Assembly: GCA_944323695.1 (NCBI GenBank)
Contig: CALUTI010000005.1
Location: 1-53,474 of the forward strand
Direction of reading: 5' to 3'
DNA from: Candidatus Gastranaerophilales bacterium
GTDB taxonomy: Bacteria > Cyanobacteriota > Vampirovibrionia > Gastranaerophilales > Gastranaerophilaceae
Length of the DNA stretch: 53,474 nt
A program made the translations under genes and the position numbers. This document shows, in pieces, positions 1-41,611 of this stretch (positions are counted from its first letter, which is position 1; each line of letters opens with the position of its first letter). Below the pieces are notes generated by a model. That model was not told the DNA's origin. It made no database searches and saw nothing but the letters and a program-made list of their open reading frames with translations.

Positions 1-54
1 TTGATGAAAGTTATTCTAATTTTATTCTATAAAAATTATATATGAGACTTTTTG

Positions 55-230
55 ATACATTTTGATAAAAAAGTATAAAAAAGCGTAGCTATAAGTATTT
101 ATATTGTATAGCCTGTGTTTTTTAGTATTTTAGTTACAGTTTTTTAATATAGTGAAAATATATAAAATATTTATGTTAGTATGAAAAAAATAATAAATTA
201 TTTACTCTATACTTTTTTATCAAAATGTAT
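55..230. repeat. 23-bp perfect inverted repeat flanking a 130-bp AT-rich segment
   Basis: Arms at 55-77 and 208-230 are exact reverse complements over 23 bases (arm 2 begins TATACTTTTTTATC and ends AAAATGTAT). Each arm is itself a rough dyad, ATAC...GTAT around a TTTT-GAT-AAAA core, as in tyrosine-recombinase core sites. The arms enclose 78-207, which is very AT-rich and holds several TATA-like boxes in both directions but no promoter I can call with confidence. The segment lies just upstream of the recombinase-like gene and the first glycan operon. Arm length and spacing match invertible promoters of other gut bacteria. Orientation switching is inferred, not seen. No gene is visible in 1-255. 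Confidence 0.8.
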
Positions 231-255
231 AGAAAATTAGGAAGGGCATTGAAGG

Positions 256-786
256 TTGACAGTTAGTTCTCCGATAAAAGATATCCAAACTATAAATATA
301 ATTAAGGATTTATATAAAAAGAAAAATATGATCCGGGATTTATTACTTTTTGAACTTGCAATTAATACAGGCGCAAATCTTAATGATTTGTTAAATTTAA
401 ATGTAAAAGATGTGATAAATAAGCACTATCTTGTAATAGATGGTAAAAAAAGTTTTCCTTTATCTGAAACAATAAAAGAGCTTATTTCAGAAGTTGTTTC
501 TAACCGTTCACTGACTGAACCTTTATTCAAGACTATAAAAAATAACCGATTGGATAGAACATTTGTTTTTTATAGTTTTAGGGATATATGTAATGAACTT
601 GGGCTTGAAAAAGACATTACAGTTGCATCATGGCGAAAAACATTTGCATATCATCATTACGAAAAATATAAAGATTTATCATACCTGCAGTGGCTTTTTA
701 ATCAAACTACCGTTGATTTAACAATGAAATTTATAGGTATCCGCGAAAATATGAACTTGAGATACAGACAAGGAGTGTGTTTGTAA
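256..786 (+). CDS. Degenerate tyrosine recombinase-like protein, leader gene of glycan operon 1
   Basis: A 176-residue protein resembling only the catalytic domain of XerC/D-type tyrosine recombinases. Aligned by eye, the usual TGLRxSEL motif is TGANLNDL near residue 39, so Arg I is lost. The HxLRHTF motif is ASWRKTF near residue 124, keeping only Arg II. The LGH box is FNQ and the nucleophilic Tyr position appears to be Phe. It should bind DNA but probably cannot cut it. There is no N-terminal core-binding domain. The TTG start at 256 is preceded by AGGAAGG at 239-245. Its TAA overlaps the ATG of the next gene (TAATG), so the two are translationally coupled. A regulatory role for the operon is inferred; a decaying integrase is the alternative. 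Confidence 0.6.
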   Translation: MTVSSPIKDIQTINIIKDLYKKKNMIRDLLLFELAINTGANLNDLLNLNVKDVINKHYLVIDGKKSFPLSETIKELISEVVSNRSLTEPLFKTIKNNRLDRTFVFYSFRDICNELGLEKDITVASWRKTFAYHHYEKYKDLSYLQWLFNQTTVDLTMKFIGIRENMNLRYRQGVCL

Positions 787-1793
787 TGCTAACGATTAAT
801 CCGTTTGATATCGAGATTTTTATATTGACTTATAACAGGAAAGAGTTTTTAAAAAAAGCACTTGAAAGTGCATTAAATCAAACTATAAAAGATCTAAAGA
901 TTACAGTAGTTGATAATGGCAGTACTGATGGAACAGAAGAGTTTGTCAGATCCTATCTTAACCGGTATGAGAATTTAAACTATGTCAGACACAACGAGAA
1001 TATTGAAGTTTTGGAAAATATAAAATTTACGGTTGGTCTTGCAAAAGAAAAGTATATGTTAATGTTTCATGATGATGATTTTATTCATCCTCAATATATT
1101 GAAACAGTTCTAAATATTATATCAAAACATGATGATATTGATTTTCTTTATCCTAAGACAACAATTTTTCAGTCAGAGGATAAAATAGATAATCAAATTT
1201 TTTCTGATATAAAATATCAAATTTATGACAGACAGCATTTTACCGCAAAAATGTTTATAAATAAGGGAACGGAAAATGTTGTTTTTCCAAGTTCCGTCTA
1301 CAGGACAGCTAACGTAAAACAGGCAATTTTACATGAAGCAATAAACACGACAGGCACAATTGCGGATAATGTGATCATAGTGGAATCTGTCATAAACGGC
1401 AAATGTGTTTATATTGAAAATTCGCTTTATTACTATAGAAGTCATCCAAGTCAAGAGTCACAGGTTTTAAAATTATATCCTGATGAAATTATCTGTTGTC
1501 TTAAGTTTTTCAAAGAAAAATTAAACAGTGATTTTTACTCCAAATTAATATTCAATGTTTTTTCTTATTACAGACTTTTACGTTTGTATAAACATTTTGG
1601 CTTATATAAAAATACAAAACTAAAAGAATTGGAAGATGACGCATATAAAGGAAATGCAGTTACAATATATGATTATATATTGTTCAAGCCTTATGGAATA
1701 TTGTTAAGGCCATTCAATGCTTTACTAAAGAAAATTTTGCAAAAAGTTAAACATCAAAACGAAACTTTTAGATTAGAAGGAGAAGCTAAATGA
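786..1793 (+). CDS. Family 2 glycosyltransferase
   Basis: A GT-A fold glycosyltransferase of 335 residues. The N-terminus carries the family signature IFILTYNR followed by VVDNGSTDGT, and the metal/nucleotide-binding acidic motif is HDDDF near residue 96. It should transfer a sugar from an NDP donor to a growing surface glycan at the cytoplasmic membrane face. ATG 786 is preferred over the in-frame GTG at 777 because AAGGAG at 770-775 sits 10 bases before 786 but only one base before 777. The gene overlaps rfbF by 4 bases (ATGA). Donor and acceptor cannot be told from sequence. Confidence 0.85.
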   Translation: MLTINPFDIEIFILTYNRKEFLKKALESALNQTIKDLKITVVDNGSTDGTEEFVRSYLNRYENLNYVRHNENIEVLENIKFTVGLAKEKYMLMFHDDDFIHPQYIETVLNIISKHDDIDFLYPKTTIFQSEDKIDNQIFSDIKYQIYDRQHFTAKMFINKGTENVVFPSSVYRTANVKQAILHEAINTTGTIADNVIIVESVINGKCVYIENSLYYYRSHPSQESQVLKLYPDEIICCLKFFKEKLNSDFYSKLIFNVFSYYRLLRLYKHFGLYKNTKLKELEDDAYKGNAVTIYDYILFKPYGILLRPFNALLKKILQKVKHQNETFRLEGEAK

Positions 1794-2587
1794 AAGTAAT
1801 AATTTTAGCAGGAGGCTTAGGGACAAGACTTTCGGAAGAAACAAGATTAATTCCGAAACCAATGGTGGAAATTGGCGGGAAGCCCATACTCTGGCATATT
1901 ATGAAAATTTATTCATATTATGGATTTAATGATTTTATTATATTGACCGGTTACAAATCTCACGTCATCAAGGAATATTTTGTAAATTATTATCAACAAT
2001 ATTCTGACATAACAGTAGATATGTCAACCAATTCTGTAGAAATTCATAAAATAGATACTGAGCCATGGAAGGTTACAATGCTTTATACCGGTCAAGAGAC
2101 AATGACCGGCTCAAGGATTAAAAAGGCGCAGAAATATATAGGCAATGAACCGTTTTTATTGACATACGGAGATGGTGTATCAGATGTAGATATCAACAAG
2201 CTAATAGACTGTCATAAAAGAAGCGGTAAATATTTGACCTTGACTGCCGTAAAACCCGGTGGAAAGTTTGGCGCTTTGGATATAGATTCTGAAGGTAATA
2301 TAAAGAGCTTTACAGAAAAACCGCAAGGCGACGGGAACTGGATTAACGGCGGCTTTATGGTATGCGAGCCGGAGGTATTTGATTATATAAAACCGGATGT
2401 AAATGATGTTGTATTTGAACGCGAACCATTGGAAAATCTTGCAAAAACCGGACAGCTTAATTCATACAAGCACAACGGTTTTTGGTATCCTATGGATACT
2501 TTGCAGGGAAAAAATCATCTTACGGAATTATGGTTAAAAGGTAAAGCTCCATGGGCATTGTGGCTGAAAGAGGCAGTTAATGTTTAA
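1790..2587 (+). CDS. rfbF: Glucose-1-phosphate cytidylyltransferase
   Basis: Makes CDP-glucose from CTP and glucose-1-phosphate, the first step to CDP-3,6-dideoxyhexoses. The 265-residue length is typical. The nucleotidyltransferase motif GGLGTRL is at residues 8-14, the KPM segment at 23-25 and the metal-binding YGDGVSDVD at 126-134. It is followed by rfbG and rfbH, the classic gene order, with an 8-base overlap into rfbG. This context separates it from the related glucose-1-phosphate thymidylyl- and uridylyltransferases. Confidence 0.93.
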   Translation: MKVIILAGGLGTRLSEETRLIPKPMVEIGGKPILWHIMKIYSYYGFNDFIILTGYKSHVIKEYFVNYYQQYSDITVDMSTNSVEIHKIDTEPWKVTMLYTGQETMTGSRIKKAQKYIGNEPFLLTYGDGVSDVDINKLIDCHKRSGKYLTLTAVKPGGKFGALDIDSEGNIKSFTEKPQGDGNWINGGFMVCEPEVFDYIKPDVNDVVFEREPLENLAKTGQLNSYKHNGFWYPMDTLQGKNHLTELWLKGKAPWALWLKEAVNV

Positions 2588-3662
2588 TAATATTTATCAT
2601 AATAAACGCGTATTTTTAACAGGTCATACCGGTTTTAAAGGAAGCTGGCTTTCGTTATGGCTTACAGCGCTGGGTGCAAAAGTTTGCGGATATTCGTTGG
2701 CGCCAAATACGGAACCGTCAATGTATGAAGAACTAAAAATAGGTGATAGAATCGAAAAATCCGTAATCGGCAACCTGCTTGATTTTGAAAAATTACAAAA
2801 AGAAATTAATGATTTTCAGCCGGAAATAATTTTTCATCTGGCAGCGCAGCCATTAGTGCGGCTTTCTTATTCAGAACCAATTTTAACCTATCAAACAAAT
2901 GTAATAGGAACATTAAATGTTCTGGAAGCTGCAAGAAGATGCTCATCTGTCAAGGCATTTGTTAATGTTACGACAGATAAGTGTTATGAAAATAGGGAAA
3001 TAGCTAGTGGTTACAAAGAAGACGAGCCAATGGGCGGATATGATATGTATTCAAGCTCCAAAGGTTGCGTGGAGATTATGTCATCATCTTTCAGACGTTC
3101 ATTTTTGGAAAACGGTTATGCCATGGCAACAGCGAGAGCCGGGAATGTAATAGGCGGAGGAGATTGGGCGCTTGACAGACTTATACCGGATTGCATAAAG
3201 GCAATAAACAGCGGGCAAAAAATAGAGATAAGAAATCCAATAGCAGTTCGCCCATGGCAGCATGTTTTAGAACCTTTATCAGGCTACTTGCTTTTGGGAC
3301 AAAAACTTATTCAGGAAGGCAATAAATATGCTGAAGGCTTTAATTTTGGCCCGAACGAGGAAAGCGTATTGCGTGTAGCAGAAGTCGCGGATAAGGTTTG
3401 TAAATTCTACGGCAAAGGCGAAGTGGTTATACATAAAAAAGATAATTTGCATGAGGCAAATTTGTTAATGCTGAATATAGAAAAAGCCGAAAGAATATTG
3501 GGCTGGACACCAACGTACACGGCAGACAAAGCAATCGAAGAAACAGTTAATTGGTATAAATATTTTTATGAAGGCAAAAAAGATTTATATGAATTTACAG
3601 TAAAACAGATTAAAGGTTATGAGGAGAGTATAAAGTGGAACAAGAATTACGCAATAAAGTAA
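2580..3662 (+). CDS. rfbG: CDP-glucose 4,6-dehydratase
   Basis: An SDR-superfamily dehydratase converting CDP-glucose to CDP-4-keto-6-deoxyglucose. It has 360 residues. The NAD-binding loop GHTGFKGSW is at 15-23, TTDK is at 131-134 and the catalytic YSSSK at 157-161. These match the extended SDR dehydratases, and the GHTGFKGSWL start is characteristic of RfbG. It overlaps rfbF by 8 bases and rfbH by 28 bases, so translation of the three is coupled. Confidence 0.93.
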   Translation: MFNNIYHNKRVFLTGHTGFKGSWLSLWLTALGAKVCGYSLAPNTEPSMYEELKIGDRIEKSVIGNLLDFEKLQKEINDFQPEIIFHLAAQPLVRLSYSEPILTYQTNVIGTLNVLEAARRCSSVKAFVNVTTDKCYENREIASGYKEDEPMGGYDMYSSSKGCVEIMSSSFRRSFLENGYAMATARAGNVIGGGDWALDRLIPDCIKAINSGQKIEIRNPIAVRPWQHVLEPLSGYLLLGQKLIQEGNKYAEGFNFGPNEESVLRVAEVADKVCKFYGKGEVVIHKKDNLHEANLLMLNIEKAERILGWTPTYTADKAIEETVNWYKYFYEGKKDLYEFTVKQIKGYEESIKWNKNYAIK

Positions 3663-4990
3663 AAGAAGCAGCTAGTGAATATTATAAACAAGTTTTTGGA
3701 AAGAAAAGAGAGTTTGATTATATTCCACCTTCAGGAAAACTTTTGGGCGAAGAAGAACTGCTTAATATGATAGATGCTTCTTTGGATATGTGGTTGACTG
3801 CAGGAAGATTCAATAAAGAATTCGAGACAAAATTTGCGAAATATCTGGGAGTAAAATATGCACTGTCAACAAATTCCGGCTCAAGCGCGAATTTACTTGC
3901 CTTTTCAGCATTAACTTCGCATAAGCTTGGTGAAAGAGCATTAAAAAAAGGTGATGAAGTAATCTCTGTTGCAGCAGGATTTCCGACAACAATAAATCCT
4001 ATTATTCAGCATGGAATGATCCCTGTTTTTGTGGATTGCGAAATCGGCACATATAATATTGATGCGGAAAAAATAGAAGAGGCTATAACTCCGAAAACAA
4101 AAGCAATATTTTTAGCCCATACACTTGGTAACAGCTATGATTTGGATAAGATAATGAGTTTGGCGGAAAAATATAACTTATGGGTAATAGAAGATTCTTG
4201 TGATGCTTTAGGCGGCGAATACAAAGGTAAAAAAATCGGCACAATTGGTCATATCGGGACATTTAGTTTTTATCCGGCGCATCATCTTACAATGGGCGAA
4301 GGCGGTGCAGTAATAACAAATGATCCGCAATTATATAAAATTATTATGTCGTTTAGAGACTGGGGAAGAGATTGCTGCTGTCCTCCCGGAAAAGATGGGG
4401 TGTGCGGTAAAAGATTCTCTCAGCAACTGGGCAACCTTCCTTTTGGCTATGATCATAAATACACATATTCTCATATCGGATTTAATTTAAAAATTACTGA
4501 TTGGCAGGCGGCTTTAGGTTGTTCGCAAATAGATAAACTGGATGGTTTTTTGGAACAAAGACGTAAAAATGCAGAGCTTTTGACGGAAAAATTGTCAGAC
4601 CTTACAGACTATTTAATTTTGCCAAAAGTAAATGACGGGGTAAAGCCTTCATGGTTTGGGTATCTGATTTCAGTAAAAGAAGATGCCCCGTTTACAAAAC
4701 AACAGATGGTTGAATACCTTGAAAATCATAAGGTCGGTACCCGCCAATTATTTGCGGGAAATATTTTAAGACAGCCGATGATTGTTGAGAACGATGTTAA
4801 TTTCAGACTCGGTGATTCTGAAATATTGAATTCAAAAGACTTAACAGAGGAGCATTATAAACTTCTTCCGAATACTGAATTCATAATGAATAATACCTTC
4901 TGGGTAGGAACTTTCCCTGCTCTGGGAGAAAAGGAAATTACAAGAATTGCAGATACAATTCATAATTGTGTGAAGGAGTATGTATGCTGA
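3635..4990 (+). CDS. rfbH: CDP-4-keto-6-deoxyglucose 3-dehydrase (E1-type)
   Basis: A PLP/PMP and iron-sulfur enzyme that removes the C3 hydroxyl from CDP-4-keto-6-deoxyglucose. The 451-residue protein has SFYPAHHLTMGEGG near residues 211-224, where ordinary aminotransferases carry a Schiff-base Lys and this family has His. The cluster DCCCPPGKDGVC near 246-257 supplies the cysteines of the [2Fe-2S] centre. The start is GTG 3635, behind GAGGAGAG and inside the end of rfbG. The reductase partner (E3/DdhD/AscD) is not in this window, so it must be encoded elsewhere or replaced by a general electron donor. Confidence 0.93.
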   Translation: MEQELRNKVKEAASEYYKQVFGKKREFDYIPPSGKLLGEEELLNMIDASLDMWLTAGRFNKEFETKFAKYLGVKYALSTNSGSSANLLAFSALTSHKLGERALKKGDEVISVAAGFPTTINPIIQHGMIPVFVDCEIGTYNIDAEKIEEAITPKTKAIFLAHTLGNSYDLDKIMSLAEKYNLWVIEDSCDALGGEYKGKKIGTIGHIGTFSFYPAHHLTMGEGGAVITNDPQLYKIIMSFRDWGRDCCCPPGKDGVCGKRFSQQLGNLPFGYDHKYTYSHIGFNLKITDWQAALGCSQIDKLDGFLEQRRKNAELLTEKLSDLTDYLILPKVNDGVKPSWFGYLISVKEDAPFTKQQMVEYLENHKVGTRQLFAGNILRQPMIVENDVNFRLGDSEILNSKDLTEEHYKLLPNTEFIMNNTFWVGTFPALGEKEITRIADTIHNCVKEYVC

Positions 4991-5835
4991 GTAGTAAAAA
5001 AACATTAGAAAAAAATGCTCTTACAATTCGTTACGGTATAATGAAAGCAATCAGTTCAAACAGAGGCGGACACATCGGCGGTTCAATGGATCTGGCAGAT
5101 ATGTTATCTGTGGTTTATACGGATTTTATAAGGGTAAATCCTGAAAATCCACGTGATGAAAACCGTGATTTTATGATATTTTCAAAAGGTCATGCAGGTC
5201 CTGCATTGTATTCGGCATTGTGTTTTAAGGGTTTTTTCCCTCCGGAAAGACTGGAAAATTTAAATAAACCAAACTCATTACTTCCGGGTCACTGCGATAG
5301 AAATAAAGTTCCGGGAGTTGATGCGACAACCGGCAGTTTGGGGCAGGGATTGTCAATTGCATGCGGTGCTGCACATGCAGCCAAGATTAAAGGGACAGAT
5401 CAAAGAGTTTATTGTGTAATAGGTGACGGAGAGGCGGCCGAAGGTCAAATTTGGGAGGCCGCACAGTATGCAGCTCATTATGAACTGGATAATTTAATCG
5501 CATTTTTAGACTGGAACAATAAACAAATTGACGGAACAGTTGATGAGGTTATGAAACTCGGTGATCCTGTTAAAAAATTTGAAGCTTTTGGCTGGAATGC
5601 TCAATTGGTAACCGGTACTGACGTTATCGGAATTCAAAAAGCAATTAATAGCGCTGTAACCTGTCATTCGAAAAAGCCTGTAATGATTGTTTTGAAAACA
5701 GTTAAAGGACAGGGCGCAAAGTGCATTATGGAAATGCCAAATAACCATTGTATTGCTCTGACAGATGAACTTAAGGAAAAAGTTATGAGTGAATTGGATG
5801 AACAGGCTGAAAAACTTGAAATGGAGGTTGTTTAA
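4984..5835 (+). CDS. Transketolase-like protein, N-terminal (TPP-binding) half, pair 1
   Basis: The pyrophosphate-binding half of a split transketolase, 283 residues. The TPP motif starts GDGEAAEGQIW and ends with DWNN, and the conserved histidine motifs GGHIGGS and SKGHAG are intact. ATG 4984 follows AAGGAG by 5 bases; the in-frame TTG at 4966 lies ahead of that ribosome site and is unlikely. The C-terminal half follows at once (TAATG). Natural split transketolases are known, so this is not a broken gene. Next to rfbFGH it probably moves a two-carbon unit onto or from a keto-sugar, giving a branched or chain-extended sugar; that is inference. Confidence 0.88.
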   Translation: MLSSKKTLEKNALTIRYGIMKAISSNRGGHIGGSMDLADMLSVVYTDFIRVNPENPRDENRDFMIFSKGHAGPALYSALCFKGFFPPERLENLNKPNSLLPGHCDRNKVPGVDATTGSLGQGLSIACGAAHAAKIKGTDQRVYCVIGDGEAAEGQIWEAAQYAAHYELDNLIAFLDWNNKQIDGTVDEVMKLGDPVKKFEAFGWNAQLVTGTDVIGIQKAINSAVTCHSKKPVMIVLKTVKGQGAKCIMEMPNNHCIALTDELKEKVMSELDEQAEKLEMEVV

Positions 5836-6803
5836 TGCAATTAAGATATACTGGCGGAAAAGCTGAAAAGGAGCCATTACAGGTTTTTAACGAAACAATG
5901 CGTGAATTATTTGAAGAAGATAAACGTGTTGTTTATCTGGATGCTGATTTAATGGGGTCGTTAAAGACAGCACAGCTTTGGAAAGATTATCCGAAAAATG
6001 TATTTAATACCGGCATTCAAGAGGCAAATATGATAGGTGTTGCAGCCGGCATGTATTTGAATGGCTTAAAACCGTATGTCCATTCATTTTCACCCTTTGC
6101 ATCAAGACGGGTATTTGATCAGGTATTTTTAAGTATAGGTTATGCTAAAAAAAGTATAAGAATAATAGGTTCAGATGCGGGGATTATGGCAACAAATAAC
6201 GGCGGAACTCACATGAGCTTTGAAGATGTCGCAATGATGAGAACAATTCCTGATGCTTGTGTAATTGATGCGTCTGATCCTGTAATGTTCGGGGAATTAT
6301 TAAAACTTACAAAAGACAGACCCGGGGTTACATATATACGTACAGCGAGACGTGATTTGAAAGATATTTATGTACCTGATGAAAAATTTGAGATAGGCAA
6401 AGGAAAAATTTTGCGTGAAGGTTCGGATGTCTCTTTGATAGCATCCGGTATCATGGTTGCAACATGTCTTGAAGCTGCTGAAAAACTTGCACAAATAGGT
6501 ATCAATGCGAGGGTTGTTGATATTATTACAATCAAACCTATTGATAAAGAGCTGGTCATAGACTGTGCAAAGACAACAAATGCAATTGTTGTTTGTGAGA
6601 ACGCAAATGTAATAGGCGGTCTGGGCAGTGCCGTATGTGATATCACGGCAGAAAGTTGCCCTGTTTGCGTGGAAAAAATCGGAATTAACGACAAATATGG
6701 CTGCGTCGGTAACGAACAATTTTTACGTGAAAAATACGGTTTAACAGTTGAAAGTATTGTTGAAAAAGCTAAAAAGTTAATAGAAAAGAGAGAAGCGAAA
6801 TGA
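5835..6803 (+). CDS. Transketolase-like protein, C-terminal half, pair 1
   Basis: The pyrimidine-binding and C-terminal domains of a split transketolase, 322 residues. It has the segment NTGIQEANMIGVAAGM, whose Glu activates TPP in this family, then the transketolase C-terminal domain with VICENANVIGGLGSAV-like sequence near residue 255. It should form a heterotetramer with the product of 4984-5835, the active site lying at the interface. The start overlaps the upstream stop by one base behind GGAGG. It ends with an ATGA overlap into the aldolase gene. Confidence 0.88.
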   Translation: MQLRYTGGKAEKEPLQVFNETMRELFEEDKRVVYLDADLMGSLKTAQLWKDYPKNVFNTGIQEANMIGVAAGMYLNGLKPYVHSFSPFASRRVFDQVFLSIGYAKKSIRIIGSDAGIMATNNGGTHMSFEDVAMMRTIPDACVIDASDPVMFGELLKLTKDRPGVTYIRTARRDLKDIYVPDEKFEIGKGKILREGSDVSLIASGIMVATCLEAAEKLAQIGINARVVDIITIKPIDKELVIDCAKTTNAIVVCENANVIGGLGSAVCDITAESCPVCVEKIGINDKYGCVGNEQFLREKYGLTVESIVEKAKKLIEKREAK

Positions 6804-8893
6804 TAAAATTATTGGATTGTACCCTACGAGACGGCGGTTATGTAAATGATTGGAAATTCGGGCATAAAGCAATTAAAGATATAAAAGAAAATCTTGAGTT
6901 GTCCGGTGTTGATATAATTGAGCTTGGTTTTATAAAAAATGAACCGGAAAATAAAGATAGAACTGTTTTTAATAATATAGACAGTGTAAAGAAGTTGATA
7001 GGGCAGAAACTTCCCAATAGAGAATATGCTGTTATGGCAGAAGTTGTAAACCCGCTTCCGCTTGATATGCTGGCGCCATACGATGAAGAATCACCTGAGA
7101 TTATAAGAGTAATTGTATGGAAAAGGATGTTGAAAGAAGGTTTTGAATACTGTAAAGGAATTGTGGAAAAGGGCTACAAGCTTTGTGTTCAGCCTGCGCG
7201 TGTGAGTCAGTATTCTGATGAAGAATTTGTCGATATGATTAAGATGTTTAATGAGCTTAATCCTATGGCTATCTATGTCGTTGACAGCTGGGGAACAATG
7301 TATAAAGAAGAACTTTTACATTATTTAAAACTTGCTGATGAAAATTTAAAAGACGGAATTTCTGTAGGGTATCACGGTCATAATAATATGATGCAGGCAT
7401 TTGATGTGGCGTGTGCATTTTGTGAACAACCGCTAAAACGCGATTTGATAATTGATGCCAGTGTCTACGGAATAGGCCGCGGCGCAGGAAATCTTAATAC
7501 GGAGATTTTTGCCAAATATGCTAATACATACCTTGATAAATTCTATGATTTAAAACCTTTAGTAAAAATTTATAACAAATATATTTCACAGATTTACAAA
7601 AAAGAAAAGTGGGGCTATTCAGTACCTTATTTTATTAGCGCAAAATATAATTGTAATCCGAATTTTGCAAGTTACTATGAGAAAAAAGGTGTTTCAGCTG
7701 AACTGATTGAAAGAGCAATTTCTACTATGAAGCCTGATGAACGTATTATATTCAAAAAAGAGGTCGCGGATGAATATTATACAAAAATTGATAAATATCA
7801 TGGCAAACGTTTGGGGATAATATTAATTACAGCTAATAAGCCTGCTGTAGTTCATTGTTTTTTGCAGAGAATTGCGCATACGGCTGCTGAACTTAATGTG
7901 GATATTATTGTTTATGATGGCAGCAAGAATAATGATACCAAAAATATTACTCAGATGTTTACTGCAAAAGGATTTTCAAATATTAAATACCAATATTATT
8001 CCGCATTGGATAAACTTAATTCAATTGACAGAAAAGTAATTAGTGCTTACGAAAAATATTCGGATGATTATGAATATTTATGGGTAACGCGTGATTCTTT
8101 ATCAATTAATCTTGATAAAGTCTGGGCAGGAATTATCGATTATATGAATGCTGCAGTTGATTTAATCGTTGTTGACGAAAAAACACGTGATTATAAAAAT
8201 CACGGTTCCAAAATTTATACAGATTGCACACAGTATTTTGTTGAACAATGTCATCAAACCACTATCTTAGGTGCAAGTATAGTCAGATCGGATGTTATAA
8301 AGAATATAATCAAAGAAGTTCCGTTGGATATGGAGAAAAATTTTGGAATCTGGCAGCCGATTTCTTATCTTGAATACTTTGCCAAGCACGATTTTGTCGC
8401 TGCAAGCTGGGTTGGCGATTTATGGGTAATGATGCCTCGAACATTAACACGAAACAAGAGGGGAACTTCTTTTTGGCATAAAAATACTTTATGGCAGTGG
8501 GGTGAACGGTGGTATAAAGCTATAACTTCGCTTCCAGAGGTTTATGATGAATTTAAGCCTTATGTATTGAAATTTGAATTGATTGACTGTAAACCGTTTT
8601 CGTTATTATTTCTTGCAAATGTTAGAAAATTGGGCGGACTTGATATATTTAAGGTGAATAAGTACAAAAAGTATTTACCTTATGTGTGTGATACTCCGAT
8701 TTGGCAGTTCTATGTGCTTTCGTTAATACCAAGGATTGCAGTTAATAGAATTGTCAGAATTTTTGTAGAAAAGTCAGGCAAAATTAAAAGAAGAAAATAT
8801 AGCAAATCAAGACGTTTAGCATTTAAAAAAGTCCTGAAATACAGTCGTAGCCTGGTAATCGGGGGGGGGGTGGCTCCTTCTCAGCTTAATTAA
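6800..8893 (+). CDS. HMGL/DRE-TIM aldolase fused to a glycosyltransferase-like domain; ends just after a poly-G tract
   Basis: A 697-residue two-domain protein. Residues 1 to about 265 form an HMGL-like TIM barrel of the 4-hydroxy-2-oxovalerate aldolase type: TLRDGG at 8-13 and the metal-binding HGH at 192-194. From about 335 a second domain begins LGIILITANK, with VYDGSKNNDT and YLWVTRDSL, and looks like a GT-A-type glycosyltransferase. A G10 run encodes GGG near the end, after which the frame closes in 8 codons. With 9 or 12 G the frame would stay open through the next gene, giving one protein of about 1103 residues with two copies of the second domain. As read here the gene is in the short state. 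The aldolase substrate is unknown. Confidence 0.8.
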   Translation: MIKLLDCTLRDGGYVNDWKFGHKAIKDIKENLELSGVDIIELGFIKNEPENKDRTVFNNIDSVKKLIGQKLPNREYAVMAEVVNPLPLDMLAPYDEESPEIIRVIVWKRMLKEGFEYCKGIVEKGYKLCVQPARVSQYSDEEFVDMIKMFNELNPMAIYVVDSWGTMYKEELLHYLKLADENLKDGISVGYHGHNNMMQAFDVACAFCEQPLKRDLIIDASVYGIGRGAGNLNTEIFAKYANTYLDKFYDLKPLVKIYNKYISQIYKKEKWGYSVPYFISAKYNCNPNFASYYEKKGVSAELIERAISTMKPDERIIFKKEVADEYYTKIDKYHGKRLGIILITANKPAVVHCFLQRIAHTAAELNVDIIVYDGSKNNDTKNITQMFTAKGFSNIKYQYYSALDKLNSIDRKVISAYEKYSDDYEYLWVTRDSLSINLDKVWAGIIDYMNAAVDLIVVDEKTRDYKNHGSKIYTDCTQYFVEQCHQTTILGASIVRSDVIKNIIKEVPLDMEKNFGIWQPISYLEYFAKHDFVAASWVGDLWVMMPRTLTRNKRGTSFWHKNTLWQWGERWYKAITSLPEVYDEFKPYVLKFELIDCKPFSLLFLANVRKLGGLDIFKVNKYKKYLPYVCDTPIWQFYVLSLIPRIAVNRIVRIFVEKSGKIKRRKYSKSRRLAFKKVLKYSRSLVIGGGVAPSQLN
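8861..8870 (+). repeat. Poly-G tract (G10), predicted phase-variation site at a gene-gene seam
   Basis: Ten consecutive G at the 3' end of the aldolase-GT gene. With 10 G the frame ends at 8893. With 9 or 12 G, translation enters the frame of the next gene and runs open to 10112. No ATG, GTG or TTG occurs in that frame between the tract and 9033. Confidence 0.85.
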
Positions 8894-9032
8894 AAAATGT
8901 ATAGTCTCATCAAGATGTGTAAGATCACATAGCGGTAAAATTTGTATAGAACGAAAAATATTTGGAATAAAGTTTAAACATACATTTTATTTCAAAAAGA
9001 GTAAATATAATTTAGGTGCGATAAAAGAAATA

Positions 9033-10112
9033 ATGCAAGAGAAAAATAAACAATTTCATTTAGGCAAACGAATGGCAGTTATTGTAATAACTGCCAACCG
9101 CGCAGATATTATTGATGATTATCTTTTTGCATTAGGTGAGTCTTATGATGATGCCGGAGTGGATTGTATTATATTTGACGGTAGTGACAATAACGATACT
9201 AAAAAGGTAGTTGAAAAATGGAATAAACGTTTTTTAAAAGATAATAGAGAGTTTTTGTTTTACAAAAAATATAACGCAACTAAAGATATTTATTCAATTG
9301 ATCAAAAAGTAATTGATGCCTGCAAAGAGTATGCCGATAAATATGAATATTTATGGCTTCAACGTGACAGATTAGGAATATTATTTAATAATTGCCTGGA
9401 AAATCTTTATAATATTTTAGCTAAAAATCCTGATATAATTGCTATATATAATTCCATAGATGAAAAAATTGAAAATTGTAACAGTTTTTATAAAGATTGT
9501 AGAGAATTTTTTAAAGATTATTATGCAGTTATAACGACATTAGGCCAATATATATTTAAATCTTCGTTCATAAAATCTGTAATAGAAGAAATTCCTTTGG
9601 ACGAAAAAACATATAGTCTTTATTTCCCAACAGCTGTTTTTCACTATATCGCAAACCGTGAATTTCTTGCTGCGAATTGCTCAGGTTCAATATTTAAATA
9701 TCATAGAAAAGCTATCACAAGTCGTTCTCATTGGTATAAATTCTTCTTTAAGCAATGGTTTGAGTTTATGTATAAAACACTTGTTAATCTTCCTGAAATT
9801 TACCGTGATTTAGTTCCGGTTATACTGAAAAAATGGAATGAACGATACAAATTGTGTCACCCTGTGGCATTATTATATTTGCATAAAGATTACGGTATAA
9901 GTAAGGATGAAATAGATAGATACGCACGGCAAATTCCGTTTATAAGTACTACGCCATTATCTATTTTTTACAAAATTTCCGAGATTGATTTTAAAAAAGA
10001 AAGCTTTAAAAATTTATTGAAAATAATTGAAGATTATGGAAAGGAAGTTGAGCAAAACCCGGATATTACTAATCTGGGAAAATTGGAAAAAGAACCTATA
10101 GGAGCAAAATAA
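9033..10112 (+). CDS. Glycosyltransferase-like protein, paralogous to the C-terminal half of the preceding gene
   Basis: 359 residues from ATG 9033. The core begins MAVIVITANRAD and includes FDGSDNNDTK and YLWLQRDRL, closely parallel to residues 335 onward of the previous protein, so the two domains are tandem duplicates. ATG 9033 has no convincing ribosome site. Its frame is open back to the G tract at 8870, and the intervening 54 codons include ERKIFGIKFKHTFYFKK, the N-terminal module seen in other proteins of these operons. The real product is therefore probably made as a fusion through the G tract when it has 9 or 12 G, with little expression otherwise. Confidence 0.75.
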   Translation: MQEKNKQFHLGKRMAVIVITANRADIIDDYLFALGESYDDAGVDCIIFDGSDNNDTKKVVEKWNKRFLKDNREFLFYKKYNATKDIYSIDQKVIDACKEYADKYEYLWLQRDRLGILFNNCLENLYNILAKNPDIIAIYNSIDEKIENCNSFYKDCREFFKDYYAVITTLGQYIFKSSFIKSVIEEIPLDEKTYSLYFPTAVFHYIANREFLAANCSGSIFKYHRKAITSRSHWYKFFFKQWFEFMYKTLVNLPEIYRDLVPVILKKWNERYKLCHPVALLYLHKDYGISKDEIDRYARQIPFISTTPLSIFYKISEIDFKKESFKNLLKIIEDYGKEVEQNPDITNLGKLEKEPIGAK

Positions 10113-10907
10113 ATGAAACAAATATCAAAAGAATTAAGAAAACATGCATTATATTTGTCGCACAAATGTCAGGACGGAAATCTGCAAAGTGTTTTTTCCT
10201 GCCTTGATATTGTGTGGGTTTTGTATGATAAAATTATGAACTGGTCGCCTGAAACAGCCCGGGATGATAACAGAGACTTTTTTATAATTTCAAAAGGTCA
10301 GGCTACCTTGGCGCTTTATCCTGTTTTGATTGAAAAAGGATACTTTACTATGGATGAAATTGCTCCTGAAATAGGAAATTTTAACAGCCGTTATTGTATT
10401 CAGACTGATCTTACAAAATTTGACGGCGGTATTGAAAATAATGCGGGTTCCTTAGGTCACGGTCTGCCTTTTGCTACAGGAATTGCAAATGCAAATAAAA
10501 TTAAAAAATCAAGTTCAAATGTCTATGTACTATGCGGTGACGGTGAATTCTGCGAAGGAACAATGTGGGAATCATGCATTTTTGCATCTGCTAAAAAGCT
10601 TGATAACCTTTGCGTGATAATTGATGATAACAATTCCGTCGGCGCAATGGTTGATATGGGTGATATGAAACAAAAATTGGAAACATTTAATTTTGATGTA
10701 AGAGTTGTTGACGGGCATGATACGGAGGAAATTGAAAAAGTCTTTAATCAACTTAAAACAATGAAAAACGGCAAGCCAAAAGCTGTGATTGCCAAAACGG
10801 TTAGAGGATTTGGCTCCAAGACAATGACGGAACATGATATTTGGTTCCATAAAAGTCCGAATGCAGAAGAATTAGAATTATTATCAAAGGAGGTTGAATT
10901 AGCATGA
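10113..10907 (+). CDS. Transketolase-like protein, N-terminal half, pair 2 (divergent)
   Basis: 264 residues. The TPP motif is present, starting GDGEFCEGTMW and closing with IDDNN. The usual histidine motifs are altered: GHIGGS of pair 1 corresponds here to DGNLQS, and SKGH is SKGQ. These residues normally contact TPP or the donor sugar, so this pair likely acts on a different substrate from pair 1. Start ATG 10113 follows AGGAGC. It overlaps its partner at 10904 by ATGA. Confidence 0.82.
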   Translation: MKQISKELRKHALYLSHKCQDGNLQSVFSCLDIVWVLYDKIMNWSPETARDDNRDFFIISKGQATLALYPVLIEKGYFTMDEIAPEIGNFNSRYCIQTDLTKFDGGIENNAGSLGHGLPFATGIANANKIKKSSSNVYVLCGDGEFCEGTMWESCIFASAKKLDNLCVIIDDNNSVGAMVDMGDMKQKLETFNFDVRVVDGHDTEEIEKVFNQLKTMKNGKPKAVIAKTVRGFGSKTMTEHDIWFHKSPNAEELELLSKEVELA

Positions 10908-11809
10908 GACGTGCATTTTTAAAACGTGTTGCAGATATGATAAGAAATGAAGCTGATACAACCTTTTTTACAGTTGATATCGGTATGTGGGCAATCCGTG
11001 ATGTGCTTGCGGAATTTCCTGATAGGTGCACAAATGTCGGTATATATGAAGATGGAATGATTTCTATTGCTGCGGGTATGGCTCGTCGAGGACTTGCCCC
11101 GACTATTTTTGGAATCCAGCCGTATTTAATTGAAAGAACACTTGAGCAAATCAAAATGGATTTGGCTTATCAAAAGTTGGGTGTGAATATAGTCGGTACC
11201 GGTGCTGCTGTCGATTATCCAAAATATGGATATTCTCACTATTGTGCAGAAGATTTGCATGTTATTAAGGCTATCCCCGGCTGTGAATTCATTGCTCCGG
11301 GAAGTGCAAAACAATTTATTCAGTTATTTAATTCTACTTATCGTGACGGTCATCCGACATTTTTTAGAGTGAGTGATCACCCTAATTCAAAATATGATCC
11401 GGATGTGGAATTTAATAAGGCTGTTGTTATGCAAAAGGGTTCAAAGGCTACTGTAATTGCGGTTTCTATAATGCTTGATGATGTTATGGAAGTTTGTAAA
11501 AATCTTGATGTAACTGTTTTGTATTATACAACCCTTGAGCCGTTTGACAGGGAAACACTGTCAAAATATTACAATGACGGTAAAATCCTTATTGTTGAGC
11601 CTCAATTTGAGGGCAGCCTTACATTCGATGTTATAAAAACATTTGAAGGAAAGCCGGTCATGGTTGAAGAAGTTGCATTCCCCCGGGAAATATTCAGAAA
11701 CTACGGGACATACGAAGAAAAAATGCAGTATTATGGTTTGACTAAAGAAAATATCAAACTGAAATTGGAAAAATTAATCGGAGCAGAATATGGATGCTTA
11801 CAAAAATAA
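10904..11809 (+). CDS. Transketolase-like protein, C-terminal half, pair 2
   Basis: 301 residues, pyrimidine-binding and C-terminal domains of a TPP enzyme. The motif NVGIYEDGMISIAAGM keeps the activating Glu. It starts behind AAAGGAGG, overlaps the N-half by four bases and runs 20 bases into the following epimerase gene. Together with 10113-10907 it makes a second complete split transketolase-like enzyme in the same operon. Confidence 0.82.
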   Translation: MRRAFLKRVADMIRNEADTTFFTVDIGMWAIRDVLAEFPDRCTNVGIYEDGMISIAAGMARRGLAPTIFGIQPYLIERTLEQIKMDLAYQKLGVNIVGTGAAVDYPKYGYSHYCAEDLHVIKAIPGCEFIAPGSAKQFIQLFNSTYRDGHPTFFRVSDHPNSKYDPDVEFNKAVVMQKGSKATVIAVSIMLDDVMEVCKNLDVTVLYYTTLEPFDRETLSKYYNDGKILIVEPQFEGSLTFDVIKTFEGKPVMVEEVAFPREIFRNYGTYEEKMQYYGLTKENIKLKLEKLIGAEYGCLQK

Positions 11810-12812
11810 AAAAGTTCTTGTAACGGGTGCGACAGGCCTTATTGGCAGTAATCTTGTTGAGAAACTTATGTCAATCGATAATATTTATGTTACGGTTCTT
11901 GCCAGAAATGAAAACAAGGTTAAAGCACTTTTTGAAAAATATTTAAATAGTCCGAATTTTAAGTATATTATACAAGATATTACTGAACCGTTTAATTTTA
12001 CCGAGGATTTTGATTATATATTTCACGCGGCAGGTTCTATCTCAGGGGAAGCTATCCGCAACTATCCGGTTGATATTATTAATGCAAATGTTGAAGGTAC
12101 AAAAAATTGCCTTGAATATTTAAAAAAGAATAAAAAAGGAAGGCTTGTCGTGTTTTCCTCCGCAACTGTTTACGGCAATAGCACCGGTAAAAATATAATA
12201 GTTGATGAAGAAGATACAACAATTACGGACAAATTAGGTTCTGCTATTTGCGCTTATTCGCAAAGCAAAAGAATGGCAGAAACCCTTGCAAGAGCGTATT
12301 TTACTCAATTCAATACCAGCGTTGTTATTGCAAGATTCAGCTATGTATATGGATTTACTAAGTTTTATCCGAATACTGCATTTTTTGAATTTATAAAGAA
12401 AGCTTTAAACGGTGAAGATATTATTCTAAATGGTACGTCTTTTGCAAGACGGGATAATATTTATGTCGAAGACGCTATAGATATGCTATTAGTTGTTGCG
12501 GCCGAAGGAGTTTCAGGTGAGGCTTATAATATATCCTGCGCAAACAAAAGTTTTGCAGCAATTGATGAAATCGCTGAAGAAATCGCAAGTGCCGCAAATA
12601 AGATTAAAAACAACTGCGTAAAAGTTGTTAAAAAATGTTTTGATGATAATAGTCGAGGTGCCGGCATTATTATTAATAATGCCAAAATCCGCGCCCTGAG
12701 CGATTTTAGGGGGGGGGGTAGGTCCCCTCTCATAGGATTAGAAGCCGGCATCTTCGAAACAGTCAATAGATTTAATCAGGAGATTGTTAATAAGGAAGGA
12801 GGTGCCAAATGA
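11790..12812 (+). CDS. NAD-dependent sugar epimerase/dehydratase with internal poly-G tract
   Basis: 340-residue extended SDR. The Rossmann motif GATGLIGSNL is near residues 13-22, and the catalytic pair is in AYSQSK near 152-157. It should modify an NDP-sugar in the operon. A G10 run near residue 308 encodes RGGGR inside the C-terminal substrate domain; the sequence after it (PLIGLEAGIFETV) is the expected family C-terminus, so this is the in-frame state. Gain of one G gives TAG at once and loss of one G gives TAG five codons on, removing about 30 residues. Substrate unknown. Confidence 0.82.
   Translation: MDAYKNKKVLVTGATGLIGSNLVEKLMSIDNIYVTVLARNENKVKALFEKYLNSPNFKYIIQDITEPFNFTEDFDYIFHAAGSISGEAIRNYPVDIINANVEGTKNCLEYLKKNKKGRLVVFSSATVYGNSTGKNIIVDEEDTTITDKLGSAICAYSQSKRMAETLARAYFTQFNTSVVIARFSYVYGFTKFYPNTAFFEFIKKALNGEDIILNGTSFARRDNIYVEDAIDMLLVVAAEGVSGEAYNISCANKSFAAIDEIAEEIASAANKIKNNCVKVVKKCFDDNSRGAGIIINNAKIRALSDFRGGGRSPLIGLEAGIFETVNRFNQEIVNKEGGAK
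12709..12718 (+). repeat. Poly-G tract (G10) inside an epimerase gene, in-frame state
   Basis: Ten G following the codons for SDF. The reading frame is intact with 10 G; 9 or 11 G both lead to stop codons within 15 bases. It is placed where a slip removes the C-terminal part of the enzyme. Confidence 0.85.
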
Positions 12813-12830
12813 TATAGAAAAGGAAAAAAC

Positions 12831-13571
12831 ATGAAAAAATTTAACGAAAAAGTTGTGCTTGTAACAGGTGCAACTTCAGGAATTGGCGAGGCAACGGCAA
12901 AAATGTTTGCACAGTGCGGTGCCTCAGTAGTTTTAGTAGGACGAAATAAAGATAAAGGTATTCAAATTGAGCAAGAAATAAGGGCAAAAGGGCAGGAAGC
13001 CTATTTCATAACCTGTGATGTATCAAAAGAAGAAGATGTAATAGAAATGGTTAATAAAGCTATTAAAAAATATAAAAAAATAGATATCTTATTTAATAAT
13101 GCAGGAATAATGTTGCCATCCCGTGAAATTGAACGGATGCCGGTTGATGACTGGAAAAAATCAATTGACGTCAATTTAACGGGGTGTTTTCTTGTGTCCA
13201 GGTATGTAAAACCTTATTTGTTAAAAGAAAAAGGTACAATAATAAATAATGCATCTATTGCGGGCTTGCAATATTATGCTGCGGGCCGATCCTATGCCTA
13301 TAGTGCGACAAAAGCTGCCGTAATTCAGTTTTCTCATCAAATGGCAAAAAATTACGGCGAGGAAGGCATCCGTGTAAATTGTATTTGTCCGGGTATTATT
13401 GATACTCCTATTTTAGGTGACAGAGACAGGAGTGTCTACGCACAGAGAGTCCCTTTGAAACGTTTGGGAACTCCTGATGATGTTGCAAAAGCAGTTTTGT
13501 TCCTGGCTTCTGAAGATGCTCAATATTTAACGGGTGTTGTTCTGCCTATTGATGGCGGGGTATCTTTATAG
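12831..13571 (+). CDS. Short-chain dehydrogenase/reductase
   Basis: Classical SDR of 246 residues, the standard length. The cofactor motif GATSGIG is at 13-19, NNAG near residue 90, and the catalytic YSATK near 160. The C-terminus ends DGGVSL as in FabG-like enzymes. It probably oxidises or reduces a sugar hydroxyl/keto group or a precursor for the operon's glycan. A FabG function is unlikely given the context. Ribosome site AAAGGA lies just before the start. Confidence 0.85.
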   Translation: MKKFNEKVVLVTGATSGIGEATAKMFAQCGASVVLVGRNKDKGIQIEQEIRAKGQEAYFITCDVSKEEDVIEMVNKAIKKYKKIDILFNNAGIMLPSREIERMPVDDWKKSIDVNLTGCFLVSRYVKPYLLKEKGTIINNASIAGLQYYAAGRSYAYSATKAAVIQFSHQMAKNYGEEGIRVNCICPGIIDTPILGDRDRSVYAQRVPLKRLGTPDDVAKAVLFLASEDAQYLTGVVLPIDGGVSL

Positions 13572-13589
13572 AAAGGGAAAAAATTAATT

Positions 13590-14318
13590 ATGACTATTTT
13601 AAAAAACAGAATTCAAAAAGTTAGTAATACAACAAATGTTCTTTATTCGTTTGATATTTTTGATACTGTTTTTACTCGTTCTGTAGCGGAGCCTGTAGCA
13701 ATTTTTTCTTTGATGCAATCGATTTTAATGACTGATAAATCCTTTTTGGATATTCCTCAAATTGTCAGAAGTAACTTTTTTACAATCAGAATTGATTCAG
13801 AAGCATTTATAAGGGCGAACAAATATATCACATGTCAGGTTTTTGAAATAACTTTAGATGATATATACAATAATATAAAACATAACTATGACTTATCAAT
13901 TGAGCAGATTGAAAGACTTAAGGAACTTGAAATTACAACTGAAATCAAAAATATTGTACCCATTCCGGAAACTATTAATAAAATTAAATCTTATCTGTAT
14001 GATAAAAAACGTGTTGTTTTAATTTCAGATATGTATTTGAACGAAAAGCAGATAAGAAGACTGCTTGTGAGTATTGATGAGATATTTGAGGATATAAAAA
14101 TTTATGTTTCTAGCGAGTTCAATAAAACAAAGAATAACGGGAATTTGTATGAATATATAAAACAAGAGGAAAATATTGATTATTGTAACTGGTATCATGT
14201 AGGCGATAATTGGGCAGTTGATGTTAAAAAAGCCAGAAATAAAAATATAAATGCGAATTTATTGGAAAAAGAACCATTAATGCCTTATGAAGCGCGTTAT
14301 TTATGGGAAAAAAATTGA
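13590..14318 (+). CDS. HAD-like hydrolase domain, N-terminal part of a split gene
   Basis: 242 residues with the HAD nucleophile motif FDIFDTVFTR near residue 21 and later VLISDMYLNEKQI and GDNWAVDV, motifs II to IV of the superfamily. Proteins of this kind in polysaccharide loci normally continue with a second domain, and that domain is found in the next, +1 frame from 14287. The break is at an A7 run (14308-14314): removing one A joins the two into a single protein of roughly 680 residues. Phase variation, transcriptional slippage or an assembly indel could explain it. Function in the glycan pathway is not defined. Confidence 0.75.
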   Translation: MTILKNRIQKVSNTTNVLYSFDIFDTVFTRSVAEPVAIFSLMQSILMTDKSFLDIPQIVRSNFFTIRIDSEAFIRANKYITCQVFEITLDDIYNNIKHNYDLSIEQIERLKELEITTEIKNIVPIPETINKIKSYLYDKKRVVLISDMYLNEKQIRRLLVSIDEIFEDIKIYVSSEFNKTKNNGNLYEYIKQEENIDYCNWYHVGDNWAVDVKKARNKNINANLLEKEPLMPYEARYLWEKN

Positions 14319-15636
14319 GGATGTCGATTTCCAATTATTAATTGGTGTAGCAAAATTAACAAGAAGATTGAGTAAAGATAACAGTGACGTATACAAATTT
14401 GGTGCATCATTTGCCGGTCCGTTATTATTCGGGTATGTAAAATGGCTAATAAATGAAGCTTTGCACTATAATGTAAAAACTCTTTATTTTATAGCTCGTG
14501 ATGGTTATATTTTAAAAGAAATTGCTGATATAATAATAAAAGAACGGAATTTAAATATTAAAACCAAATATATTTACGCATCAAGAAAAGTATGGCGTGT
14601 CGCAAACGAACATAATATTGATTGCTTTTTGTCTGTAATGAATAGTGAATATTTTGATAGATTCTCGACTTCCTTTGTAGCAGAACGCTTAGGGCTATCA
14701 AAAGATGAATTTACACGTTTAACAGGTTTTGAATGCAATAATAAAATTTTAAGCGAAAACTCCAGAAAATATTTATACGAAAAATTAGAAAACAATACGG
14801 CACTAAAACAAACTCTTATTGAAAAATATAAAATTAAAAATGAACTCTCAATAAAATATTTACAACAGGAGCTTGATTTTAGAGATAAAGATATTTGGTT
14901 TGTTGATGTCCATGGCTCCGGCAAAACTCAGGACATCTTAATAAAAACTCTGAAAAGCTTTTGTAATAATAATTTTGAATTCTTTTATTTTAGTTTGGAT
15001 ATTTCTATGACACCGGAAAATATAGCCGAAAAACGACAATATTTTACATATTTTCACATAAAACATTGGATGGAACTTCTTTGTCGGACTCCTGAGGGAC
15101 AAACTATAGGTTACAAAGAACATAATGGATATATCTATCCTATAAAAGGAAAATCTAATAATAATTTATTGAAGTGGGGTTTTAATTCTTATGTGGATGC
15201 CGTAAAGGATTACAGTAGGTTAATTCTTGAATTTGAACAGAAAAATAATATTAGTCTGGTATCGTATTCCTTGTGTAAAAAATATTTTGAATATTTTAAT
15301 TATTCCCTTGACAGAAATACTGCGGATTTGATTGGTTCTGTTCCGTTGTCAATCCTGGGTAATGAAAATAATCCTCAAGAGGCAGCGCCTGTATTTGGAT
15401 TTTTTGATTATTTTAAAATCCTATTTGGTCTGCATACAGATATCAATTATTTAGATAGTATTTCTTATGTTCGATCAAATAAATATTTCAGAAGTTTGAG
15501 AAAATTTTTGGATAAACACGGTTCGTTAAGAAATTTTTTCTTTGAGTTTTATAAAAATAATGAAGAAAAGGAAGTTTACCTGAAAATTTTGGGACAAAAA
15601 ATCACATTAAAAAAATTGTTTGGCTGGAGGGTGTAA
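14287..15636 (+). CDS. C-terminal domain of the split HAD glycan-locus protein
   Basis: The frame is open from 14287, though translation most likely enters it at the A7 run. The domain contains GASFAGPLLFGYVKWLI and LYFIARDGYILKE, hallmarks of the region that follows the HAD domain in large glycan-locus proteins. No ribosome site precedes ATG 14287, which argues for fusion with the upstream frame. The C-terminus has KILGQKITLKKLFGW, reminiscent of the ILGIKxK modules of neighbouring proteins. It ends with a TAATG overlap onto the methyltransferase gene. The role is unknown. Confidence 0.7.
   Translation: MKRVIYGKKIEDVDFQLLIGVAKLTRRLSKDNSDVYKFGASFAGPLLFGYVKWLINEALHYNVKTLYFIARDGYILKEIADIIIKERNLNIKTKYIYASRKVWRVANEHNIDCFLSVMNSEYFDRFSTSFVAERLGLSKDEFTRLTGFECNNKILSENSRKYLYEKLENNTALKQTLIEKYKIKNELSIKYLQQELDFRDKDIWFVDVHGSGKTQDILIKTLKSFCNNNFEFFYFSLDISMTPENIAEKRQYFTYFHIKHWMELLCRTPEGQTIGYKEHNGYIYPIKGKSNNNLLKWGFNSYVDAVKDYSRLILEFEQKNNISLVSYSLCKKYFEYFNYSLDRNTADLIGSVPLSILGNENNPQEAAPVFGFFDYFKILFGLHTDINYLDSISYVRSNKYFRSLRKFLDKHGSLRNFFFEFYKNNEEKEVYLKILGQKITLKKLFGWRV
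14308..14314 (+). repeat. A7 run at the frame break in the HAD gene
   Basis: Seven A between GGG and TTG. With A7 the upstream frame stops at 14318; with A6 it continues WEKIEDVDFQ and stays open to 15636. The required change is +1 in reading terms, so this is not a dnaX-type -1 site. Confidence 0.7.
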
Positions 15637-16655
15637 TGAAAAAAATCATACAAAGTCTATTTTCAGTAACTAATAGTTTGGACAAAAGACATAAAATAAT
15701 TTCAATTCTCGGGATTAAACTAAAATTTAAACGCCGTAGGAATTTTGCAGTAGAAATTATATCGGAAGATATTTCAAATCTCAATGAAATAAAAGAAAAT
15801 TTTGAATGTCCGTTTTGTAAATCAGAAAAATACTATCCTGTTAAATCTTTTAAATTTTCTGGACTTATTGAAGAATATGAAAAAGTATATAGAATTGATC
15901 CTATAGGTGAAAGATTACGGTACAAAAAATTAGTAAAATATAAATGTGCTGAATGTGGCATTGAATTCTATAATTATACTATAGTTACACCACCTGTTTT
16001 TTACGAAAAATTATTGGCAACGGGCAACTATATTTATCCCGAATATAAATGGGAATATGAAAAAGCATTAGAATTTATATTGAGTAATAACTGCAAAAGA
16101 GTGTTGGACGTTGCCTGTGGAAGCGGTAATTTCCTTGATAAAATTCAAAATATAACTGAATATTCAATTGGAACCGAATTTAATGCAACTGCCATTGACG
16201 AATGTATTAAAAAAGGACTGAAGGTTACCAATAAAAAATTGGAAGATTTAGATGAAAAATTTGATTTTGTAACAGCATTTCAGATTTTGGAGCACATGGA
16301 AAATCCGAAAATATTTATAAAAAATGTCTTAGAATGTGTAACAAGAGGTGGGTACGCTCTTTTTGCCACTCCAAATCCTGAAGGATTTTGGATTAAAGCT
16401 AATCCTTGGGTCTTGAATTTGCCGCCGCACCATAATTTGGACATTACGGAAGAATTTTATAAAAATCTTGAGAATTATTTTGATGTCAAATTGGTCGGTT
16501 ATTTCCAAGATGAACCTGACTGGGGACTATATAGATCTTTTGTTTTACCAATGCACACTAATTTATCTATGACGTCACAAGATTATTTATGTTTTTTAAA
16601 AGAAAAAGCGTCAATAAAAGGACATAATCATCTTGTCCTATTGCAAAAATTATAA
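15636..16655 (+). CDS. SAM-dependent methyltransferase with N-terminal zinc-ribbon
   Basis: 339 residues. The N-terminus has KIISILGIKLKF (residues about 21-32), the short module shared with other proteins of these operons. Then CPFC and CAEC, about 50 residues apart, suggest a zinc ribbon. The class I methyltransferase fold follows, with motif I VLDVACGSGNFL near residue 155 and FQILEHMENP after it. Zinc-ribbon methyltransferases of this layout include sugar C-methyltransferases; O-methylation is equally possible. It is the last gene of operon 1 and starts in a TAATG overlap. Confidence 0.8.
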   Translation: MKKIIQSLFSVTNSLDKRHKIISILGIKLKFKRRRNFAVEIISEDISNLNEIKENFECPFCKSEKYYPVKSFKFSGLIEEYEKVYRIDPIGERLRYKKLVKYKCAECGIEFYNYTIVTPPVFYEKLLATGNYIYPEYKWEYEKALEFILSNNCKRVLDVACGSGNFLDKIQNITEYSIGTEFNATAIDECIKKGLKVTNKKLEDLDEKFDFVTAFQILEHMENPKIFIKNVLECVTRGGYALFATPNPEGFWIKANPWVLNLPPHHNLDITEEFYKNLENYFDVKLVGYFQDEPDWGLYRSFVLPMHTNLSMTSQDYLCFLKEKASIKGHNHLVLLQKL

Positions 16656-41333: not shown

Positions 41334-41554
41334 AGAATTTAATAATATTATAATACAAAATTTTGGCATGTGTTAATTTATAGGATTAAATTCTTATCAG
41401 ATTTATTCAACATTTAATTCATTTTGATGCGAATAATGCAAATCAAGTTTTATAAACGTTTTCGCTGATGTTTATATCTAAAAATTACATTTTTTAATGT
41501 TAAATATAATTAAATTTTATTTGTGATATCATGAGTTTGCTTTGATATTATATG

Positions 41555-41587
41555 TTTTATACAAAATAAACAAAATGTTGTATAAAA
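41555..41587 (+). promoter_or_regulatory. 10-bp inverted repeat upstream of glycan operon 2
   Basis: TTTTATACAA (41555-41564) and TTGTATAAAA (41578-41587), a perfect inverted repeat with a 13-base loop, 24 bases before the first gene of the operon. It contains TTATACAAAATAA, shared with the inverted repeat at 16711-16764 after operon 1. Could be a regulator operator, or an untranslated-leader hairpin. The promoter itself is not clear. Confidence 0.55.
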
Positions 41588-41611
41588 TTAAAAATGGAGT
41601 ATTTGAAATAA

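Follow-up and report, generated by a model that had tools for sequence, protein, structure and literature searches.

The start of this contig carries a 23-bp inverted repeat ahead of a glycan operon, which raises the question of whether the DNA between the two arms is an invertible promoter. The window, i.e., the whole stretch of 53,474 nt that was analyzed, opens contig C5 of a Candidatus Gastranaerophilales genome (G000; 1.73 Mb in 19 contigs). Positions 55 to 230 are, in all likelihood, a promoter inverton of the FimB/FimE-like kind. The left arm (ATACATTTTGATAAAAAAGTATA) is the exact reverse complement of the right arm, as an earlier note had described, and the match holds at 27 of 29 positions when the arms are widened to 49 to 77 and 208 to 236. 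Dinucleotide shuffling of the region (100 replicates) gave scores of at most 16, compared with the 23 observed, which rules out a chance origin, and no other inverted repeat of at least 17 nt (gap <600) occurs in the 53-kb window. Each arm consists of two imperfect half-sites (ATACATTTT and AAAAAGTAT) around a short center and is internally near-palindromic, consistent with the proposed recombinase core sites. The ORF next to the right arm encodes a degenerate recombinase and is not a glycan gene. An Rfam search of positions 1 to 3000 of the window revealed no RNA element.

Table 1. Features of the candidate switch and its surroundings (window coordinates unless a contig is named)
Feature	Position	Strand	Remarks
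3' end of recombinase A	1..32	+	Rest on C9:46-585, minus strand; stop codon at 30-32
Left arm, putative recombination site	55..77	+	Imperfect match from 49; assembly branches at inner edge
Invertible spacer (candidate)	78..207	.	130 nt; relatives have homologs in either orientation
Candidate extended -10 promoter, AAAATATTTATGTTAGTATGAAA	164..186	+	TG at 174-175; -10 TAGTAT at 177-182; faces operon
Right arm	208..230	-	Imperfect match out to 236
B, tyrosine-recombinase-fold paralogue without catalytic residues	256..786	+	First gene of the operon; Pfam PF00589
Glycan operon behind the switch	777..16655	+	Sugar-enzyme genes (777-8893; 9033-16655) plus unknowns

The gene directly adjoining the left arm encodes recombinase A, an intact tyrosine recombinase of 179 amino acids (aa) that comprises the catalytic domain only. 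The catalytic R, K, HxxR, H, and Y are all present (in GLRISD, EKKTGK, GTHTMRK, FNH, and RYIG), and 22 nt separate the stop codon from the perfect arm. Two of the features expected of a tyrosine-recombinase promoter inverton, repeats beyond chance and a catalytically complete tyrosine recombinase nearby, are found at this locus. The FimB/FimE-type NCBIfam models NF007371 and NF007370 gave A 35.5 and 24.2 bits against cut-offs of 222 and 221, which places A outside that subfamily by this measure, though A would work like FimB/FimE. The best score against the Xer (XerC/XerD/XerA) equivalog models was 86 bits, with a cut-off of 220, and the 179 aa do not make a full-length Xer protein. A can be described as XerC/FimB-like. 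Matches to relatives of A and B at E values of <1e-30 were obtained in 195 of the 288 genomes of the family, and a repeat lies just past the stop codon in many A genes without B as well. Downstream of a paralogue of A on contig C7, no repeat was detectable.

The contig boundary itself bears on the question. Bases 1 to 77 of contig C9 are the reverse complement of bases 1 to 77 of the window, and C9 (reversed) is the true left neighbor of C5. A comparison of all 38 contig ends of G000 yielded exactly three 77-nt overlaps, at 16S rRNA sequence, a tRNA, and the C9/C5 boundary, which indicates that 77 is very probably the k of the assembler and that the C9/C5 boundary is a branch in the assembly graph. 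The 77-mer is present only at C5 and C9, which rules out repeated sequence as the cause of the break. Base 77, the innermost base of the left arm, is the last one before the branch. Base 78 is A as assembled and would be G with the spacer flipped, so a fork at exactly this point is expected if the flipped spacer coexists. The branch is indirect evidence of a population of mixed orientation in the sequenced sample; it could in principle reflect strain variation happening to begin at base 78. In a relative (G006), contig C14 begins and contig C30 finishes exactly at the two arms (ACTCAACACAATAGATATTGTGTTGA) and the spacer is missing; A and a glycosyltransferase operon lie on opposite flanks. The flipped junction was not found in viral contigs, nor was a second assembly of the same species displaying the flipped form. 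Within the genus of G000, the only closer relative with a spacer was G009, whose contig begins inside it. A dispersed palindromic repeat (GCATTTTCTTTCTCTTTGTTGCGAAGCAAAGAGAAAGAAAACGC) occurs at many contig ends of G000.

The same boundary speaks to the alternative that a former inverton has become fixed in this strain, with repeat and recombinase kept and inversion ceased. Such decay occurs among relatives: no A was found in the genome containing locus L160, and at about 5800 to 6010 this locus retains B, a single arm-like remnant, and a promoter-like motif facing B, which probably represents a switch locked ON, and in G015, B is down to a remnant. G000 itself has perfect arms and an intact A, and its assembly forks at the arm, which makes a fixed inverton very unlikely here.

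The layout is not peculiar to G000. A scan with the B alignment, using one genome per species, retrieved 54 loci, about 25 of which are B, nearly all in metagenome-assembled genomes (MAGs) that bear the name Candidatus Gastranaerophilales, are unnamed, or are related. In one MAG labeled Rickettsiales, the B locus (L162) is nearly identical to that of Avigastranaerophilus (L161), and it is probably a mislabeled or misbinned MAG or a recent transfer. The cassette of A, repeat, B, and glycan genes recurs across Candidatus Gastranaerophilales. Among the 24 B loci with enough upstream sequence, the present window counted, 16 have a strong inverted repeat, compared with 0.03 expected, with spacers of 103 to 229 nt; the other 8 have no strong repeat in the region searched. 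The arm sequences vary between loci. In partial Mantel tests of 11 loci, the arms covaried with A given B (r = 0.50, P = 0.0008), but an association of the arms with B given A was unsupported (P = 0.25). The spacers showed the same pattern in the test of the 11 loci. These results indicate that A, arms, and spacer act as one unit, in which A is the likely cognate enzyme; this unit appears to have been exchanged relative to B and the operon. Several arm-like sites in a row follow A at L077 (about 3520 to 3960), L071 (about 4320 to 4760), and L151 (5700 to 6000), suggesting multisegment (shufflon-like) promoter arrays. In another genome, A lies beside one arm copy (TAACCATATTGTGAAG) on a separate contig (L196, about 2083), and the B locus (L154) has both arms and no adjoining A, a layout that suggests either that A acts in trans or that a larger rearrangement took place.

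Opposite orientations of the spacer were found by comparison between genomes. Many of the weaker spacer similarities are AT-rich noise, and only shuffle-controlled pairs were relied upon. In these pairs, homologous spacers are inverted between genomes although the flanks keep the same order: the L145 spacer is opposite to those of L150, L153, L154, and L146 (z of 6.5 to 9), that of L144 is opposite to that of L158 (z = 6.5), and that of G000 is opposite to that of L163 (z = 6.2). The remaining homologous pairs share one orientation. These observations also weigh on the reading of the repeat as a plain operator, i.e., two palindromes bound by a regulator, such as B acting as a repressor, and no inversion. 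The near-palindromic arms and the noncatalytic recombinase fold of B, for which MrpR provides a precedent as a pure DNA-binding regulator, would suit an operator. The arms track A and not B, an intact recombinase adjoins them, the assembly breaks at the inner arm edge, and the spacers of relatives occur in both orientations, all of which render a plain operator highly improbable. The invertible promoter, as the earlier note had proposed, accords with each of these observations.

A promoter on the spacer is suggested by an extended -10 motif (T-rich, then TTTGTG-n-TAnnnT) present in 15 of 16 spacers, once per spacer. It points toward B in 5 loci (G000 and L142 to L145) and away from B in 10, and it always ends 9 to 33 nt from the arm read into, so that the distances in the two orientations are mirror images. 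Leave-one-out analysis recovered the motif above all shuffles in 14 of 16 spacers, with L149 and G000 failing, and among independent spacers of A-only loci, 6 of 17 exceeded 12 bits, compared with 0.9% in shuffles. The promoter call for G000 is the weakest of the set; the motif on its plus strand has a counterpart at the same place and in the same direction in L142 (24 nt, 87.5%) and is also found in G009. The same motif, at 22 bits, lies at 41514 ahead of the second glycan operon of the window, which indicates that this organism probably uses it as an ordinary promoter. Judged from the sequence, the assembled orientation of G000 is probably ON. The start of the second operon (41514 to 43483) has this plain extended -10 promoter with no repeat and no B. 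Its NTP_transferase+APH gene product is 84 to 86% identical to those encoded by the first genes of the operons behind B in L144, L146, L147, and L154, and its 122-aa product is 67 to 74% identical to the counterparts in these loci; the corresponding identities with L160 are 80% and 71%.

In the proposed mechanism, A would recombine the two inverted 23-bp sites and thereby flip the 130-bp spacer. In the assembled orientation, the extended -10 promoter would face B and the glycan operon (ON), and in the other orientation, it would face the 3' end of A (OFF). The predicted outcome is a phase-variable surface glycan. The operon encodes a GT2 glycosyltransferase, a nucleotidyltransferase, a CDP-glucose-dehydratase-like protein, a DegT aminotransferase, split transketolases, an HMGL-like protein, an epimerase, an SDR protein, a methyltransferase, and unknowns. 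The targets of the switches of relatives are likewise mostly glycan genes (GT2, GT8, LicD, Stealth, and UDP-galactopyranose mutase). At L179 (5929 to 11464), an A-type recombinase and an inverted repeat (CAACACAATGTTATTATGTTGCC, gap of 149) lie ahead of the gene for the BREX protein BrxC, a candidate phase-variable phage defense system.

The protein at the head of the operon, B, is 38% identical to A and matches the Phage_integrase family of Pfam (4.1e-14). Its gene starts with TTG behind a GGAAGG/GAAGG-like ribosome site. In the 24 B proteins, the histidine of HxxR is always absent and the second arginine always present, the nucleophilic tyrosine is replaced by phenylalanine in 19, the first arginine (R-I) is gone in 21, and the motif SWRKTFAY is invariant. 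Phylogenetic analysis placed B in one clade, separate from all A (support of 100/100). A comparison of the B genes of G000 and G009 gave a dN/dS ratio of 0.045 (dS is close to saturation), pointing to purifying selection. An AlphaFold model of B (pLDDT of 87.7) matches the folds of XerA, XerH, and Cre. The residue losses, the single clade, the dN/dS ratio, and the confidently predicted fold indicate that B is a conserved protein minus the residues of catalysis. Quite apart from the inverton, B might be a functionless duplicate of A that decays at the operon head. The catalytic residues are gone, and B is missing or a mere remnant at some loci (G006 and G015), yet its single clade, the motif kept in all 24 proteins, the low dN/dS ratio near saturation of dS, and the intact predicted fold make this unlikely. 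The remnant in G015 (L136, about 2380 to 2460, contig C18) comprises about 25 codons behind an intact A and repeat.

As a conserved protein, B is conjectured, by analogy, to be most likely a regulator that binds DNA and controls the switch or the operon; UpxY/UpxZ provide the analogy for its position and MrpR that for its fold. B would be produced only or mainly in the ON state. It is conceivable, at somewhat less than even confidence, that B, made only when the switch is ON, feeds back on the switch or operon, which would make the inverton self-sensing. B might do so by blocking or biasing inversion by A, through site occupancy or mixed complexes, by acting at the leader as a repressor or activator, or by regulating the long glycan transcript. 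No description of such a feedback layer was found for known invertible promoters. Coevolution of A and B was unsupported (r = 0.15, P = 0.12), which weakens a model of tight contact between the two. At some B loci (L141, L152, L160, L161, and L162), no repeat is detectable. Given this and the lack of detectable coevolution between A and B, it is at least as probable that B acts on the operon itself as that it affects A directly.

In Escherichia coli, fimS (with FimB/FimE) and ipuS/hyxS are short promoter segments flipped by a small (~200 aa) tyrosine recombinase that is usually encoded alongside, and the present locus resembles them in having a candidate promoter on a short inverted-repeat segment, a small tyrosine recombinase, and a probable surface structure as the target (PMC6083910). 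It differs in that A scores far too low for the models of tyrosine-type DNA invertases, which are 198 to 200 aa long. The target here is a glycan operon, and the paralogue at its head is catalytically dead, whereas the recombinases of the E. coli sets are known as active enzymes. In Bacteroides, capsular polysaccharide operons have invertible promoters and start with the regulatory genes UpxY/UpxZ (PMC7315117). The present operon is likewise a glycan operon behind a putative invertible promoter and headed by a candidate regulatory gene, but B has a recombinase fold and is neither an UpxY-type antiterminator nor an UpxZ-type repressor, the recombinase gene lies next to the switch, and the phylum is another one. 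MrpR (YopR), the master repressor of Bacillus phage SPbeta, has a tyrosine recombinase fold but no longer functions as a recombinase and instead regulates by binding DNA (PMC10516654). B likewise combines a recombinase fold with lost catalytic residues, but MrpR is a phage lysogeny repressor and does not head an operon behind an inverton with an active paralogue. No parallel to a conserved dead recombinase at an operon head was found among invertons. A search of the open-access literature turned up no publication describing invertons in Gastranaerophilales or Melainabacteria. Neither Melainabacteria nor cyanobacteria are mentioned in one recent survey of invertons; they may be covered by large surveys outside that literature. 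A promoter inverton is apparently unreported in the Gastranaerophilales lineage.

If true, the switch would mean that the surface glycans of Gastranaerophilales (Melainabacteria), which are related to cyanobacteria and live in the gut, undergo site-specific phase variation. The frequency of A and B relatives in the family indicates that such switches may be widespread. The correspondence between arm sequence and recombinase clade offers a natural collection of recombinase/site pairs, and the dead recombinase at the operon head raises the question of whether invertons sense their own ON state.
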